From Blastococcus sp. CT_GayMR16 (GTDB taxonomy: Bacteria; Actinomycetota; Actinomycetes; Mycobacteriales; Geodermatophilaceae): DNA of 64,000 bases. The notes beneath the pieces were generated by a model that worked only from the letters and a program-made list of their open reading frames with translations, was not told where the DNA came from and ran no database searches. Positions 4,448 through 11,168 of the stretch are shown one piece after another (positions within the stretch are counted from its first letter, which is position 1; each line of letters begins with the position of its first letter). The translations under genes were made by a program, and so were the position numbers. Where the stretch lies: the NCBI RefSeq assembly GCF_004570875.1, contig NZ_SPQK01000006.1, forward strand, positions 62,001 through 126,000, read 5' to 3'.

Positions 4448-4474
4448 TGTCCCATAACGGCCCACTTAGGGACA
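4448..4474. repeat. Dispersed palindromic repeat, copy A
   Basis: A 27-bp imperfect palindrome with 6-bp outer arms TGTCCC and GGGACA around CATAACGGCCCACTTA-like DNA. It matches the empty-site sequence rebuilt across the IS110 insertion (copies D plus E) and shares right-flank bases (GACAG followed by CGCCTCA) with copy E. It lies directly behind the stop codon of the small gene 4476-4766. Confidence 0.8.
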
Positions 4475-4475
4475 G

Positions 4476-4766
4476 CTACGCCTCATCCGTCTCGCGCGGT
4501 GGGAGCGGCGGGTGAGGGACTGTGGCCCTTAGCCCGGCGGGTACCGGAACATGGCCTTCAGGCCGGTCGCAACAGACGTCAAACCCGCTGTGCCTGGGGC
4601 ACTCAACTTCCCCACCGGTCGGGCAGTAGTACACGTCCGGGCAGCCGCAGTCGTAGACAACCCCGTCCCAAGCGGAGGCGATGACCTCCGGTGTCGTGCT
4701 CACCGGGTGACGGTATCGGGCAAACGGCTCGGCCTCGATGTACGTCTCAGCCCTACCGATGCCCAT
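4476..4766 (-). CDS. Hypothetical Cys-rich protein, 96 aa
   Basis: The frame reads MGIGRAETYIEAEPFARYRH, followed by a segment dense in Cys: YDCGCPDVYYCPTGGEVECP, then RHSGFDVCCDRP. The C-G-C, Y-C-P, E-C-P and C-C groups with a nearby His suggest metal binding or disulfides, but no family is recognised. The ATG lies inside repeat copy B and the stop is next to copy A, so the gene is bracketed by the repeat on both sides. No clear ribosome site precedes the ATG, and an internal start is possible. Base composition is less G+C-rich than in the catabolic genes. It could be a cargo gene or a decaying fragment. Confidence 0.45.
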   Translation of the reverse strand: MGIGRAETYIEAEPFARYRHPVSTTPEVIASAWDGVVYDCGCPDVYYCPTGGEVECPRHSGFDVCCDRPEGHVPVPAGLRATVPHPPLPPRETDEA

Positions 4767-4782
4767 AACGGCCCATTTAGGG
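4761..4782. repeat. Dispersed palindromic repeat, copy B (partial)
   Basis: GCCCATAACGGCCCATTTAG followed by GG. It keeps the core of copy A, but the right arm is degraded (GGCG instead of GGGAC). It supplies the ATG of the 4476-4766 gene on the minus strand. Confidence 0.75.
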
Positions 4783-4869
4783 CGACCTGATCGGGTCGGA
4801 TCAGGCGACGTCGTCTTCGCGGCCATACTCACCTCCGTGGGCCGAGACCAGGGGGACGCAGAACGAGGC

Positions 4870-5064
4870 ATGAGCCGGGCGGATGCCGATTCGCTTGCTT
4901 CGGCGGTGCGTAACGCCGTCCCCGAAGCGCACGTTGCGATACAACCTGACACCGGCCATTGGCTGGTCCAGGTGGAAACTTCCTCTGCTGGCGCCTTCAC
5001 CCTCTACGACGAGGACGACTGGCGATGGCTGCAGCCTCAGATCGTTCAGGGCATACAACGGTGA
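4870..5064 (+). CDS. Small hypothetical protein, 64 aa
   Basis: An acidic, Trp-containing small protein: it starts MSRADADSLASAVRNAVPEA and ends with TLYDEDDWRWLQPQIVQGIQR-like sequence. A beta-rich middle (HVAIQPDTGHWLVQVET) gives it the look of a real folded domain rather than noise. I do not recognise the family. The ATG at 4870 follows a weak CGAGG; the frame stays open upstream to 4738, but that part runs through repeat copy B and looks non-coding. It sits between copies B and C. Local G+C is about 60%, below the window average, consistent with an acquired gene. Confidence 0.5.
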   Translation: MSRADADSLASAVRNAVPEAHVAIQPDTGHWLVQVETSSAGAFTLYDEDDWRWLQPQIVQGIQR

Positions 5065-5104
5065 CCGGTGCAGAAAACCTGTCGATCCCCAGGCTTCGGA
5101 CACG

Positions 5105-5147
5105 TTTCTGAAGCCGCCTTGTGTCCCAGAGCGGACCACTTAGGGCC
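5105..5147. repeat. Dispersed palindromic repeat, copy C
   Basis: Contains both halves of the element: CTGAAGCCGCC (5108-5118) and a diverged TGTCCCAGAGCGGACCACTT (5122-5141) followed by AGGGCC. It has more substitutions than copies A and D and lies directly behind the stop of the 5163 gene. Confidence 0.7.
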
Positions 5148-5162
5148 ACTCTGCTTGCGCTT

Positions 5163-5654
5163 TCAGGAGTCCGAGTCGCTCTCGTTGATGCCATAGCCGC
5201 GGCCCAGAGGATTCGGCTTCCATCGCGGCGACGAGAACTCGTCGGCTGGACGTGATGGTTCGCCCGGCAGGCGCCCGGCCGATGCATCTCGCGCAGCCAC
5301 GGACTTGGGTGGGTGAACGTAGCCCGGGGGAAGTGGGTACCACCGGCTCCAGCCAAAATCGTGCCCCCGCCGAAGAAATGCCTGCCCGGGCCGCTCTTCA
5401 GCGAATGAGAGGTCTTCGCCTGCAAGCTTCTTGGCGTCGATCTCTGAACTGTTGCGCTTGAAGAAGCCAGCCTGTTGGAAGGTCGCGCGAGCCTGCTCCG
5501 GCGAAGTTGCGAAGAGGACGACCTGGCTCTGCCATGTTTGGGCCATTGCGTCGTCGACCGTGAGTCCGTAGACCCGACTTGCCGGGATAGCGGCATCCCG
5601 CTCAAGGCGACGAGCGCGCACGTCTGCGCGGCTCGGCTTGTTCGACTTGGGCAC
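5163..5654 (-). CDS. Hypothetical protein, about 163 aa
   Basis: An unrecognised, fairly hydrophilic protein: it starts V-P-K-S-N-K-P-S-R-A-D-V-R-A-R-R, continues with ASRVYGLTVDDAMAQTWQSQ and VVLFATSPEQARATFQQAGF, and ends in a Pro/Ser-rich acidic tail (INESDSDS). No membrane segment is seen. I chose the GTG at 5654. The frame stays open to an ATG at 5756, but that ATG is inside repeat copy D, has no ribosome site, and gives a peptide (MGRYGTEGG...) encoded by the repeat itself. G+C is about 55-60%, well below neighbouring catabolic genes, so this is probably acquired DNA. The gene is bracketed by copies C and D. Confidence 0.45.
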   Translation of the reverse strand: MPKSNKPSRADVRARRLERDAAIPASRVYGLTVDDAMAQTWQSQVVLFATSPEQARATFQQAGFFKRNSSEIDAKKLAGEDLSFAEERPGQAFLRRGHDFGWSRWYPLPPGYVHPPKSVAARDASAGRLPGEPSRPADEFSSPRWKPNPLGRGYGINESDSDS

Positions 5655-5718
5655 GAGGCGATCGTAGGAGAGCCCGCGTGCGGCCAACGCCGACCTGACT
5701 TGGCGCGTCTGTGTCTCG

Positions 5719-5760
5719 GTGTCCCTGGAGCCGCCCTCTGTCCCATAGCGGCCCATTTAG
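5719..5760. repeat. Dispersed palindromic repeat, copy D (left part of the IS110 target)
   Basis: Reads GTGTCCCTGGAGCCGCC (5719-5735), then TGTCCCATAGCGGCCCATTT up to the AG at 5759-5760, where homology to the repeat ends and the IS110 element begins. The missing right arm (GGGACA) is found at 7257-7262, on the other side of the element. Confidence 0.8.
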
Positions 5761-5781
5761 ACATCCCACGGTGCTAACTCG

Positions 5782-7015
5782 TCAAGCGGCGGCGAGTTCG
5801 CCGGTTCCGGTGTGCCAGGCGGTCGCCTCGTCGTAACGGCTGTGGTGGCGTAGGCAGCCGTGCAGGATGCCCACCAACCGGTTGGCCAGGGCGCGCAGCG
5901 CCTGGTGATGGGTGGCTCCCCGGGCGCGCTGTCGGTCGTAGTAGTCCCGGGCTCCGGGTGAGACGCCGAGCGCGGTGAAGGCCTGGAGGTAGAGGGCGTC
6001 GGCGAGCCGACGGTTGCGGGCAAAGCGCGCCAGAACAACCCGTCGGGTGCCCGAGGCGCGGGTAATCGGCGCCATTCCGGAATAGTTCTTGCGCGCCTTC
6101 GGATCGGCGTAGCGGTGCGGGTCGTCTCCGAACTCGGCCAGCACCCGGGCGCCCAGAATCGGCCCGAGCCCGGGCTGGCTCAGGTAGATCTCAGCGTCCG
6201 GGTGCCGGCCAAAACCCGCCTCCACCTCCGCCCGCAGCACCTCGGTCTGGGTCACCAGCTCGGTGATAACCGCGACCAGCGCGCGCACCGCGGCTGCGTA
6301 GGCGCCGACTACGCCGGGGTGCGCCTCGAGTTGCGGAGCCCGCAGTGCGGCCTGGATGTTCTCGGCGGTGGCCTGCAGGTTGCGCTGCCGGCCGGCCGGC
6401 CCGCCGCAGCGCCGCGGCGATCTTGCTGCGGGAGAGCCGGCGACCGGCCTCCGGTAAGGGCGCGACCGCCAGGATGGCCAGCGCGTCCCGGCCGGCCAGT
6501 TCGTCGCCGAAGGCGGCCAGCGCGGCCGGATAGAACTCGCGCAGCATCGAGCGCAGCGCGTTGGTCTGCCGCTGCCGGGACCAGATCATCGACTGGTGGG
6601 TGCGGGTAAGCACCTTGATGTGCGCGCCCAGCGCGGAGTCCCCGGCCACCGGGCGGTGATGCGCCCGATCCAGGCGGACCAGCTCGGCCAGCACATGCGC
6701 GTCACCAGGATCGCTCTTGGCCCCGGAGGTGCCGTGCCGTTCCCGGTAGCGGGCGACCTGCAGCGGATTGATCGCGTAGACGATGTAGCCGGCGGCGATC
6801 AGCGCCTGCACCCACGGCCCCCGGTCGGTCTCGATCCCGATGACCACCTGCTCTGGTTCGGCGTCGTCCTCGAGGTGCTCGGCGATCAGCGCATGCAGTG
6901 CCGCCAGACCATCGGCCCCCTCGGGAAGCCGGCGGCGGGCCAGCCTGCGACCGTCGTCGTCGACGAGCTCAATGTCGTGATGGGCCTCGGCCCAGTCGTT
7001 TCCGATGAACAACAC
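5782..7015 (-). pseudogene. IS110-family transposase (DEDD recombinase), frameshifted
   Basis: The N-terminal half begins at GTG 7015 behind GGAGGAGG and reads VLFIGNDWAEAHHDIELVDD, then VVIGIETDRGPWVQAL, then SGAKSDPGDAHVLAEL, showing the D, E, D and D residues of the RuvC-like DEDD catalytic domain. The C-terminal half (Tnp_20 domain) contains LSQPGLGPILGARVLAEFGD and RYADPKARKNYSGMAPITRA, with the conserved Ser of that domain probably LSQPG. The halves are in different frames. The break is at a CCGG tetranucleotide run (6388-6401), where removing one 4-bp unit restores AALRRAGRQRNLQATAENIQ and a protein of about 409 residues, normal for the family. As read, the element is not autonomous. 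Confidence 0.85.
6388..6401. repeat. CCGG tetranucleotide run at the transposase frameshift
   Basis: CCGG repeated three times plus CC. One extra 4-bp unit, relative to the frame that joins the two transposase halves, explains the frameshift and suggests slippage. Confidence 0.7.
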
Positions 7016-7069
7016 CCCAGCGGCCTCCTCCGGTTCGCATCCGTCCGTCCGAACCCTGGAGGAGAAGAC

Positions 7070-7200
7070 CGTGGCGACCTTATGGATCAGTGCTCGAGGC
7101 ACGCCATCCCACCAGCCATCCGCTTCTCCTCGCTCACCGGCGGGTGCACGGTCTAAATGTGGGCCTCGACGTTCGGGCCCGGGACGCGGAGTGCTCACCC
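7070..7200 (-). ncRNA. Putative IS110 bridge RNA
   Basis: The non-coding left end of the element, upstream of the transposase, shows two guide loops in the order expected for IS621-type bridge RNA (minus strand). Target loop (7146-7194): closed by GCAC/GTGC, it has GTCCC (7185-7181), identical to the left target, a GGGCC/GGCCC hairpin (7180-7161), then CATTTAG (7159-7153), exactly complementary to CTAAATG of the right target including the CT core. Donor loop: GTGGGATG (7112-7105), identical to the element's right end, a GTGC/GCAC hairpin, then CCATAAG (7085-7079), matching CCATTAG, the complement of the left end, at 6 of 7 positions. RNA ends are approximate. Structure and guides are read by eye; the model comes from published IS110 work. 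Confidence 0.6.
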
Positions 7201-7246
7201 GCCGACGGCCCGGACACCCGGATCCTGCTGGAGATCGACCGGATGC

Positions 7247-7262
7247 GGTCCCATTAGGGACA
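7247..7262. repeat. Dispersed palindromic repeat, copy E (right part of the IS110 target)
   Basis: The bases from 7256 rightward (AGGGACAG followed by CGCGCCTCAG) continue the repeat interrupted at 5760. The bases to the left (GGTCCCATT) are the end of the IS110 element, which mimics the repeat. The flank resembles the flank of copy A. Confidence 0.7.
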
Positions 7263-7270
7263 GGCGCGCC

Positions 7271-7909
7271 TCAGTTCAGTCGGGCAGACGCTATGCCCCT
7301 CAGGAGGGAGATCGTCGCGGCGTCGGTCTGAACGCCTCCCACTCCCGGGTGCCGCGAGTACTGGTCGGGAAGATCGACAAGGCCCAGCGCTCGATCAGCC
7401 GCTGCCGCAGCGGCCTCGGAGTCGCCCAGCATCCTTGCGGCCTTGGCGCAAGCCAACTCATACCGGAAAAGGCTGTCGTAGAAGGCGGTGATGCCGAACA
7501 TGACCTGTTCGTCCTCGCTCATCTGGACCAGCACCGTCGATGCCTCCTCCGGCCGCTGCAACTCCAGCAGTACCTCAGCCAGAGATACGTGCAGGATGTC
7601 CGATCGAACGTTGCTCGGCGGCAAGGACCGGAGGTGTCGGTAGCGCATCTCGGCCTCTTCGAACCGCCCCTGCGCCCGTGCTATGTCGCCGAGGTGCTCA
7701 AGCGCCCTCCGCTCCTCGAAGTCGTCGGGATGCTCGGTTAGCAAGCGTTCGTACAGGGCTGTTGCCTCATCGAGCAGCCCGGCTTGAGCCAGAGTGAAGG
7801 CCTTAATCCTTATGTAGGAGGAACGCGACTGTCTGGCTCTACTCAGACGCTGCTCAAAGTCCGCTCGCGCATCCGCGTCCCAGTCCGGGTTTCGATACCA
7901 GTCACTCAC
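7271..7909 (-). CDS. Tetratricopeptide-repeat protein, 212 aa
   Basis: Starts V-S-D-W-Y-R-N-P-D-W-D-A-D-A-R-A-D-F-E-Q-R-L, an opening seen in a family of actinobacterial TPR proteins of unknown role. Helical repeats follow: AFTLAQAGLLDEATALYERL, EHLGDIARAQGRFEEAEMRY and VSLAEVLLELQRPEEASTVL, each with the TPR spacing of small and large residues. It is probably a cytoplasmic scaffold or immunity/accessory protein; no enzyme motif is visible. The GTG at 7909 is chosen because the upstream open frame runs through repeat copy F (7917-7942) and then noise. G+C falls to about 52-58% over much of the gene, unlike the surrounding chromosome, which suggests acquisition together with the island. Confidence 0.7.
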   Translation of the reverse strand: MSDWYRNPDWDADARADFEQRLSRARQSRSSYIRIKAFTLAQAGLLDEATALYERLLTEHPDDFEERRALEHLGDIARAQGRFEEAEMRYRHLRSLPPSNVRSDILHVSLAEVLLELQRPEEASTVLVQMSEDEQVMFGITAFYDSLFRYELACAKAARMLGDSEAAAAAADRALGLVDLPDQYSRHPGVGGVQTDAATISLLRGIASARLN

Positions 7910-7916
7910 GTGCCAA

Positions 7917-7942
7917 GTGTCCCTGAAGCCGCCTTCAGGGAC
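7917..7942. repeat. Dispersed repeat, copy F (perfect hairpin half-element)
   Basis: GTGTCCCTGAAGCCGCCTTC followed by AGGGAC. The arms GTCCCTGAAG and CTTCAGGGAC are perfectly complementary around CCGC. It equals the left half of copies C and D but closes directly on itself. It lies 8 bases upstream of the TPR gene start. Confidence 0.75.
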
Positions 7943-8055
7943 GTGCCTGCGACGATGGCTGATCGACCGATGCGCGGCGGGCGGGATGGATGGGGGCGCA
8001 CCGTCGCCTGAGGCGGCTCGCTCATAGGCCTCTCCAAGGGCTGCTGAACTGGTAC

Positions 8056-10021: not shown

Positions 10022-11168
10022 CGCGCCTGACCAGCTGCTCCACGATCACGTTGCGCTGGATCTCGTTGGTGCCCTCGCCGACGATCATCAGCGGCGCGTC
10101 CCGGAAGTAGCGCTCGACGTCGAAGTCCGTGGAGTAGCCGTATCCGCCGTGCACGCGCACCGCGTCCAGCGCGATCTGCATGGCGGCCTCGGACGCGAAC
10201 AGCTTGGCCATGCCGGCCTCGAGGTCGGCGCGGACGCCGCTGTCGACCCGCTCCGCGGCGAGCAGGACGAGCTGGCGGGCGGCGGTGAGCCGCGTCGCCA
10301 TGTCGGCCAGGTAGTTGCCCACCGACTGGTGCTGCCAGATCGGCTTGCCGAAGCTCTCCCGCTCCTGGGCGTAGCGCAGCGCGTCCTCGAACGCGGCCCG
10401 CCCGACGCCGACCGCCCGGCTCGCGACCTGGATCCGCCCGAGCTCGAGGCCGCGCATCATCTGCGCGAACCCCGCACCCGGCTCGCCCCCGAGGACGGCG
10501 TCCTTCGGGGCGCGGTAGCCGTCGAAGACGACCTCGCAGCTCTCCACGCCCTTGTATCCGAGCTTCGGCAGGTCCCGCTCGACGGTGAGGCCCGGGCCCT
10601 TCTCGGCCAGCAGGATGCTCATGCCCCGGTGCGGCGGGTCGGCCCGCGGATCGGTGCGGCACAGCAGCGCGATCAGCCCGGCCCGGCGGGCGTTGCTGAT
10701 CCAGGTCTTCGACCCGTCGACCACCCACTCGTCGCCGTCGGCGCGCGCGATGGTGCGCATGGCCTGGAGGTCGGAACCACCGCCGGGCTCGGTCAGCGCC
10801 ATCGTGGCCCGCAGCTCGCCGGTGGCCAGCCGCGGCAGGTATCGCTCCCGCTGGTCCTCGGTCCCGAACGTGGCGAGCAGCGAGCAGACGACGCTGTGCC
10901 CGCCCATCGACCCGGCCAGGCTCATCCAGCCGCGCGCGAGCTCCTCGGTGACCAGGGCGAAGCAGGCGGTGGAGACCTGCACGTCGCCGTACGGCGGGGG
11001 CACCACCAGCCCGAAGACGCCGAGGGCCTTCATCTGCTCGATGAGCGCCTCGGGATAGGTGTTGGCGTGTTCGAGCTCGCGGACGACGGGCCGGACCTCG
11101 TCGTCGACGAACTCGCGGACCAGCGCGACGATCGCGCGCTCCTCGACCGACAGCTGCGAGGTGCTCAC
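10005..11168 (-). CDS. Acyl-CoA dehydrogenase
   Basis: A 387-residue FAD-dependent dehydrogenase that introduces the alpha,beta double bond into acyl-CoA. Domain order is an N-terminal helical domain (VREFVDDEVRPVVRELEHAN), then the beta domain with ATMALTEPGGGSDLQAMRTI and WISNARRAG, then a C-terminal helical domain. It ends with GEGTNEIQRNVIVEQLVRRG, where the Glu at about 365 is the usual catalytic base. GTG 11168 starts the protein at VSTSQLSVEER. It is divergent from the racemase gene across 60 bases, so a shared control region is likely. Together with the next three genes it completes a beta-oxidation set suited to 2-methyl acyl-CoAs. Substrate chain is unknown. Confidence 0.88.
   Translation of the reverse strand: MSTSQLSVEERAIVALVREFVDDEVRPVVRELEHANTYPEALIEQMKALGVFGLVVPPPYGDVQVSTACFALVTEELARGWMSLAGSMGGHSVVCSLLATFGTEDQRERYLPRLATGELRATMALTEPGGGSDLQAMRTIARADGDEWVVDGSKTWISNARRAGLIALLCRTDPRADPPHRGMSILLAEKGPGLTVERDLPKLGYKGVESCEVVFDGYRAPKDAVLGGEPGAGFAQMMRGLELGRIQVASRAVGVGRAAFEDALRYAQERESFGKPIWQHQSVGNYLADMATRLTAARQLVLLAAERVDSGVRADLEAGMAKLFASEAAMQIALDAVRVHGGYGYSTDFDVERYFRDAPLMIVGEGTNEIQRNVIVEQLVRRGGLPD

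Follow-up and report, generated by a model that had tools for sequence, protein, structure and literature searches.

Bridge RNAs, covariation of their guides with the target DNA, and targets of the repetitive extragenic palindrome (REP) kind have already been published for IS621, an insertion sequence (IS) of the IS110 family (PMC11208160). Targeting of attC sites has likewise been published for IS1111 elements (PMC11187229), and in Acinetobacter elements of the IS1202 family hunt the recombination sites of pdif/dif modules (PMC10132070); all three reports are drawn on here in excerpt. A 64,000-nucleotide stretch of Blastococcus sp. CT_GayMR16 (contig NZ_SPQK01000006.1, positions 62,001 to 126,000; hereafter the window, with positions counted from its first letter) contains an IS110 element that almost certainly carries a left-end bridge RNA and a CT core, and whose natural target, chosen by the guides, is the 26/27-base-pair (bp) palindromes of an array; the copy itself is probably immobile. 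The mechanism of this element class is known, and the element adds another case. A preliminary description, made from the letters of the window, had recognised neither the probable inactivity of the copy nor the place of the palindrome among the sites of a polar, gene-cassette-like array.

The likeness to IS621 extends over the transposase family, the left-end RNA, its two loops with left and right guides, the CT core, the palindromic target and the covariation (PMC11208160), whereas the element here is actinobacterial, lies on an array site rather than a REP and is frameshifted in this copy. The IS1111–attC group (ISKpn4, ISPst6) also comprises RNA-guided DEDD elements in what are, or here would be, gene-cassette recombination sites (PMC11187229); it differs, according to the excerpted text, in having its RNA usually downstream of the gene, subterminal inverted repeats and integron attC targets. 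The pdif/dif modules resemble the arrays described below in being small modules between short sites (11-6-11 there; 10-7-10 and 10-6-10 here) that a site-hunting insertion sequence reveals, but the Acinetobacter modules are plasmid-borne, are flanked by sites in inverse orientation and use XerC/XerD (PMC10132070). The arrays here are mostly in direct orientation, have a distinct head and another site sequence, and occur also in single-contig genomes of 4.6–5.6 megabases (Mb); they do not consist of inversely oriented 11-6-11 XerC/XerD sites. In integrons, too, small units follow a head in a polar array and a tyrosine recombinase is sometimes nearby and divergent; the arrays here differ in having no integrase over the integron cut-off and no recognised attC-sized site.

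The element and its interrupted site

As first described, a single IS110 element interrupts a palindromic repeat. Homology to all seven close relatives (82–86% nucleotide identity, in other Geodermatophilaceae genomes; L004–L009, L021) ends at CT on the left, homology to the six that possess a right end (L008 has none) ends at CT on the right, and the rejoined flanks give TGTCCCTAAATGGGCCGCTATGGGACA, a complete 27-bp palindrome scoring 42.7 bits. Such a CT dinucleotide at both ends, with the empty site restored by joining, is the pattern of IS110 insertion. Two details of the preliminary description change: the extent that it gave, 5719–7262, does contain the element but takes in parts of the target as well, and the uninterrupted copy at 4448–4474, which scores the same 42.7 bits, is the same repeat at 25/27 positions rather than identically. 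It had also been proposed to look for the element at other genomic copies of the repeat. In its own 4.52-Mb genome the element occurs once (a second match covers only 33 bases), and the CT common to its relatives is partly by construction, because the motifs by which their left and right ends were located contain CT. Among 112 genomes of the family, 17 (its own included) were matched at E 1e-30, more distant relatives among them.

The IS110 identity is borne out by the protein. The transposase pieces match PF01548 (E 9.4e-33) and PF02371 (E 4e-13), giving the combination of DEDD and PF02371 domains, and the transposase of an intact relative passes the NCBI model 'IS110 family RNA-guided transposase' (181 bits; cut-off 140) and is similar to the ISCro4 and IS621 transposases of solved structure (E ~1e-8).

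A left-end RNA with guides for target and donor

The preliminary description had asked for a covariance-model scan of the left end and had named an alignment lacking conserved loops as a result that would tell against it. A model built from 36 sequences, the window's being one of them, finds only 7068–7218 in the window and has matches in 26 of the 112 family genomes. In the 36-sequence left-end alignment, 14 of the 32 consensus pairs include sequences in which both partners have changed and pairing is retained. Compensatory changes are numerous in the long stem that closes the target loop, as at columns 26/81, where GC has become CG in 11 sequences, and they also occur in the hairpin within that loop (columns 46–49/60–63). 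The donor-loop stem GTGC/GCAC is almost invariant and hence gives no covariation evidence; the small hairpin first read inside each guide pair is thus backed by covariation in the target loop alone. Folded by itself, the RNA of the window copy does not stand out clearly from its shuffles in stability (z −0.73; 40/200 at least as stable). The left end holds a structured RNA with two loops, as in IS110 bridge RNAs, and guides that match target and donor, the donor guides being judged by reading the sequences. GTCCC and CATTTAG match the left and right target including the CT core, just as claimed, and the claimed donor matches of 8/8 and 6/7 also stand, the shortfall in the latter being particular to the window copy. 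The IS621-like architecture, with CT core and palindromic target, is supported.

The guides follow the targets across relatives. Ninety-eight loci were taken (18 from first searches and the best 80 of 299), the left-end motif CTAATGGG being present in 51; removal of 9 duplicates and of 2 with short flanks gave 40 non-redundant left ends. Each target position from −10 to +10 was compared with every sufficiently populated left-end column, once for identical and once for complementary bases, giving 7,374 tests; two guide diagonals, ten positions together, take 10 of the 11 highest ranks. Ranks 1 and 3–11 join target −5 to −1 with left-end positions 72–76 (identity) and +1 to +5 with 103 to 99 (complement), single positions agreeing in 27/27 cases at +3 and 26/27 at +2; rank 2 is a non-guide column (left-end position 180, at target −1), taken as a reflection of ancestry. 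Among the 27 elements for which both flanks are available, guide agreement is 8.8/10 with the own target and 3.5 with the targets of the others; none of 20,000 permutations attains the observed sum (25 distinct targets), and the own target is the sole best in 18/27 and tied best in 5/27. An out-of-sample check used ten further loci (L199–L208) that the covariance model brought up afterwards; nine of them have a readable left end. The left-guide bases matched, of four, in L199–L207 are 4, 3, 4, 4, 1, 3, 4, 4 and 3, a mean of 3.3/4 for the own target versus 1.7 for each other's targets (L201 and L202 share one flank).

On the right side, the guide reads CTAAATG in the window, CTAAGCG in L004, L007, L008 and L021, and CTGAAG in L005, L006 and L009, which lie at sites of the 26-bp type. 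As read from these sequences, the predicted right guide tracks the kind of site hit (26 or 27 bp); positions +1 to +5 match in full in five of the seven close elements that have a right flank, and at 4/5 in the other two, L004 and L021.

A sister IS110 group (L011–L015, L020, L022) has another target, whose left side mostly reads ..CGA or ..CGT before CT. Its guides differ to match its own targets and its donor ends are unchanged, which amounts to natural retargeting. Relatives in unrelated flanks had been put forward as a finding that would speak against guided insertion, and this group, at unrelated sites, does in part supply it; because its guides differ accordingly, the bridge-RNA idea is supported more strongly. 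IS110 biology thereby gains a natural series in which one lineage is retargeted by changes in the guides with fixed donor ends, both target sides being readable for 27 elements. Separately, Candidatus Mycobacterium methanotrophicum has at least 10 related IS110 copies (L126, L128, L137, L139, L140, L144, L146–L149; 62% transposase identity) with a left end that does not contain the motif used.

Several points weigh against this reading or narrow it. The 47 of 98 loci without the left-end motif lie outside the guide analysis; the guide columns for the own-versus-other comparison were picked on the same data in the scan; and the shared ancestry of relatives inflates single-column scores. Another element's target fits the guides better in 4/27 cases, the guides of L091 match their own target at only 5/10, L203 matches at 1/4 left-guide bases, and the later-fetched L205 has CC at its left core. 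The window is the only one of the 36 rows with CCATAAG (two other rows deviate from CCATTAG elsewhere), and its right donor guide matches at 6/7 because this copy alone carries that sequence in place of CCATTAG. Compared with two intact relatives, its transposase gene has 4 extra bases at 6398–6401; the frame is therefore broken and the gene read as two pieces. The extra bases may be an assembly error rather than a real frameshift. With the frameshift and the mutated donor guide, the sequence suggests that the window copy is probably inactive and immobile by itself.

What is established here comprises the ends and the core, a conserved RNA fold, covariation between guides and target and, in this copy, a transposase frame that is broken; transcription, circle formation and strand exchange would proceed as in the published IS621 work. 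On that analogy, the left end of the element would be transcribed into bridge RNA, one loop of which (CGTCCC, CATTTAG) would pair with both target strands around CT, and the other (GTGGGATG and, in intact relatives, CCATTAG) with the junction at which the ends meet in an excised circle. The transposase, through its DEDD and PF02371 domains, would exchange strands at CT, leaving CT at each end. The natural target of the Geodermatophilaceae subgroup would be an arm of the 26/27-bp palindromes that head or separate the units of a polar array.

Polar arrays of the target site

Five palindrome-core matches at up to 2 mismatches are present in the 4.5-Mb genome, one being the interrupted site, and four of the five cluster within 1.3 kilobases (kb) in the window, which is not the many-copy distribution of a REP. 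The target had been called REP-like: it is a palindrome, but it forms a local cluster and is one site of an array rather than a genome-wide repeat, and the REP reading was dropped when the genome search showed this. A further palindrome copy, at 3 mismatches, lies outside the window (C22:305221–305245). Read along the minus strand (Table 1), the head at 7943–7918 is followed by a tetratricopeptide-repeat (TPR) gene, the 27-bp site split by the element and a gene for 197 amino acids (aa), and then by a 27-bp site (5148–5122), a unit of ~340 bp, a degenerate site (4782–4762), a small gene and the site at 4474–4448.

Table 1. Features of the element, its bridge RNA and the surrounding array (window positions)
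Feature	Positions	Strand	Basis or remark
IS110-family element	5761–7257	−	1,497 bp including left CT core; similarity limits with relatives
Right core CT	5759–5760	−	left core CT at 7257–7256
Transposase gene, two frames, start approximate	5782–7024	−	4 extra bases at 6398–6401
Bridge RNA region	7068–7218	−	covariance-model match, 128.8 bits, E 9e-25
Left target guide CGTCCC	7181–7186	−	last C pairs with core; first C mismatched
Right target guide CATTTAG	7153–7159	−	reads target CTAAATG
Left donor guide GTGGGATG	7105–7112	−	donor match 8/8
Right donor guide CCATAAG	7079–7085	−	donor match 6/7; majority sequence CCATTAG
Interrupted 27-bp site, left part TGTCC	7258–7262	−	rebuilt from flanks
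Interrupted 27-bp site, right part	5739–5760	−	rebuilt from flanks
26-bp head site of array, CGTCCCTGAAGGCGGCTTCAGGGACA	7918–7943	−	site scoring
27-bp array site	5122–5148	−	site scoring
Degenerate array site, core match only	4762–4782	−	under 27-mer score threshold
27-bp array site, last detected in window array	4448–4474	−	site scoring
Unit 1 gene, TPR protein, start by eye	7274–7909	−	homologue in array L078
Unit 2 gene, 197 aa	5166–5756	−	without Pfam match
Part of last unit and its site	4448–4706	−	common with L082 7119–7377, 70%

Two kinds of site occur in the family: one of 27 bp, with 10-bp arms and a 7-bp spacer, TGGGCCG, and one of 26 bp (10-6-10) with the spacer GGCGGC. The spacer is exact in 101/114 scored 27-bp sites and 54/60 scored 26-bp sites, and when only the arms are prescribed, these spacers are present in 56/66 and 43/45 strict matches, respectively (each strand being counted separately). 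The strict site pattern is found in 58 of the 112 family genomes, with few sites per genome, and its reversed control has no match. A search of 394 Actinomycetes genomes for the 27-bp pattern at up to 1 mismatch gave matches in 2, each from Geodermatophilaceae, and none in the other 392; viral contigs contain no array sites with any of three patterns.

The arrays are polar. In 45 regions fetched for holding sites or related insertions (L060–L085, L176–L194), 43/55 26-mers have a 27-mer within 3 kb downstream and 12/55 upstream (one counted twice, in overlapping loci), and these downstream 27-mers point the same way as their 26-mer in 70/78 cases; a 26-like half follows many 27-bp sites within 0–13 bases. 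Of the eight close elements, that of the window included, five lie in regions with further sites (L060, L062, L065, L066, L067) and L061, near a contig end, has the interrupted site but no further one; in L063 and L064 no array site reaches the threshold applied.

Units recur between genomes, as in L074 7620–9040 and L082 (72%), L185 9519–10002 and L067 (79%), L066 14156–14798 and L180 (79%), and the window TPR unit and L078 (65%); alignments under ~62% identity, which resemble the GC-rich background, were disregarded. In L067 a 235-bp unit is present twice in opposite orientation (6054–6288 and 10040–10275; 96%), bounded by sites within one base. Most other homology ends 0 to ~120 bases from a scored site and several stretches end 200–600 bases away (for example L185/L067 and L073/L069); not every boundary is clean. 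An Rfam scan of four array loci returned only a transfer RNA (tRNA) at the gathering threshold. Searches of open-access literature on integrons and cassettes in Geodermatophilaceae or Actinobacteria, with excerpts of PMC9024848, brought up no account of such arrays. The polar 26/27-bp site arrays (window 4448–7943 and the 45 regions) are likely an undescribed cassette system.

Recombinases and competing explanations

Two inverted arms around a short, conserved, asymmetric spacer form the layout of a tyrosine-recombinase core site. The arms show no excess of compensatory changes (lowest p 0.026 over 11 pairs in the 27-mer and 0.24 over 10 pairs in the 26-mer), in a test confined to consensus-like sites with an orientation-callable centre and limited in power because sites were picked by similarity to the consensus. 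Arms that are alike yet do not covary pair by pair argue for recognition as duplex, and recognition as a hairpin, attC- or REP-like, was rejected on this ground.

Tyrosine recombinases lie within 3 kb upstream of the head in 12 loci and are divergent in 9, as counted with a profile built partly from the same loci, which biases detection. Head-proximal divergent examples are L067 1729–2811, L074 5328–6659, L077 11445–12716, L187 2856–4016 and L188 5502–6683. Because some adjoin tRNA genes (3 of the 12, in L074, L077 and L176, and two others, in L185 and L191), the near-head recombinases may be ordinary island integrases. Eleven recombinases near to or far from heads are 23–52% alike where BLAST matched them, with one pair at 85%. 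Clustering of the reading frames of 42 regions showed no recombinase family common to all arrays, and a single family for all of them was rejected; in the largest cluster, of 17 loci, frames lying within the IS110 element are grouped together with tyrosine recombinases. The head-near divergent recombinases are only suggestive as the array recombinase.

On balance the target is rather probably the recombination site of an undescribed Geodermatophilaceae cassette system. In such a system 27-bp sites (spacer TGGGCCG) would separate units in one orientation, the 26-bp head (GGCGGC) would recur behind many 27-bp sites, and a tyrosine recombinase, possibly divergent from the head, would excise and insert units; IS110 bridge RNAs would be tuned to the site sub-types and so mark them. 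It is unlikely, by comparison, that the palindromes play a passive part, as terminators, operators or REP-like repeats, with no movement of the genes between them and with IS110 using a convenient repeat as IS621 does. The sites are not tied to any recombinase, those of the window stand directly upstream of genes in operator-like fashion, some common units do not end at sites, and IS110 elements on REPs are well known (PMC11208160, in excerpt). Passive repeats would not, however, readily account for the polarity of the sites (70/78 in one orientation; 43/55 downstream against 12 upstream), for an asymmetric spacer conserved in 101/114 and 54/60 cases, for the recurrence of units from genome to genome, with homology that often breaks off at a site or close to one, or for strict sites being few per genome, unlike REPs.

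It would be surprising if the arrays were ordinary integrons and the sites divergent attC. A special head site followed by small units in a polar series would fit, as would the near-head tyrosine recombinase (12 loci, 9 divergent) and the known targeting of attC by the IS1111 group (PMC11187229, in excerpt). Yet none of the 112 family genomes holds the integron integrase TIGR02249 over the cut-off, on which account the integron reading was rejected; the weaker matches are general tyrosine recombinases, present in all 112 genomes and all 14 controls. Sites of 26–27 bp whose arms do not covary, within the limited power of that test, fit duplex recognition rather than a folded attC, and 3 of the 12 recombinases near heads have a tRNA gene as neighbour, like island integrases. 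Coincidence or shared descent is scarcely credible as the source of the guide matches: some high-ranking scan columns (z up to 7.6) are non-guide and probably reflect ancestry, but the ten positions on two diagonals stand at the top of the scan, the sister group with other sites has correspondingly other guides, and most out-of-sample loci agree. For the cassette system favoured here, the guides offer a direct way to find and test it, because the RNA-guided element led straight to the sites.

Within the element, the Rfam family Ms_AS-4 matches window positions 6097–6178 on the plus strand (61.6 bits; gathering threshold 50), antisense to the transposase frame, and this match may merely reflect IS110 coding sequence.
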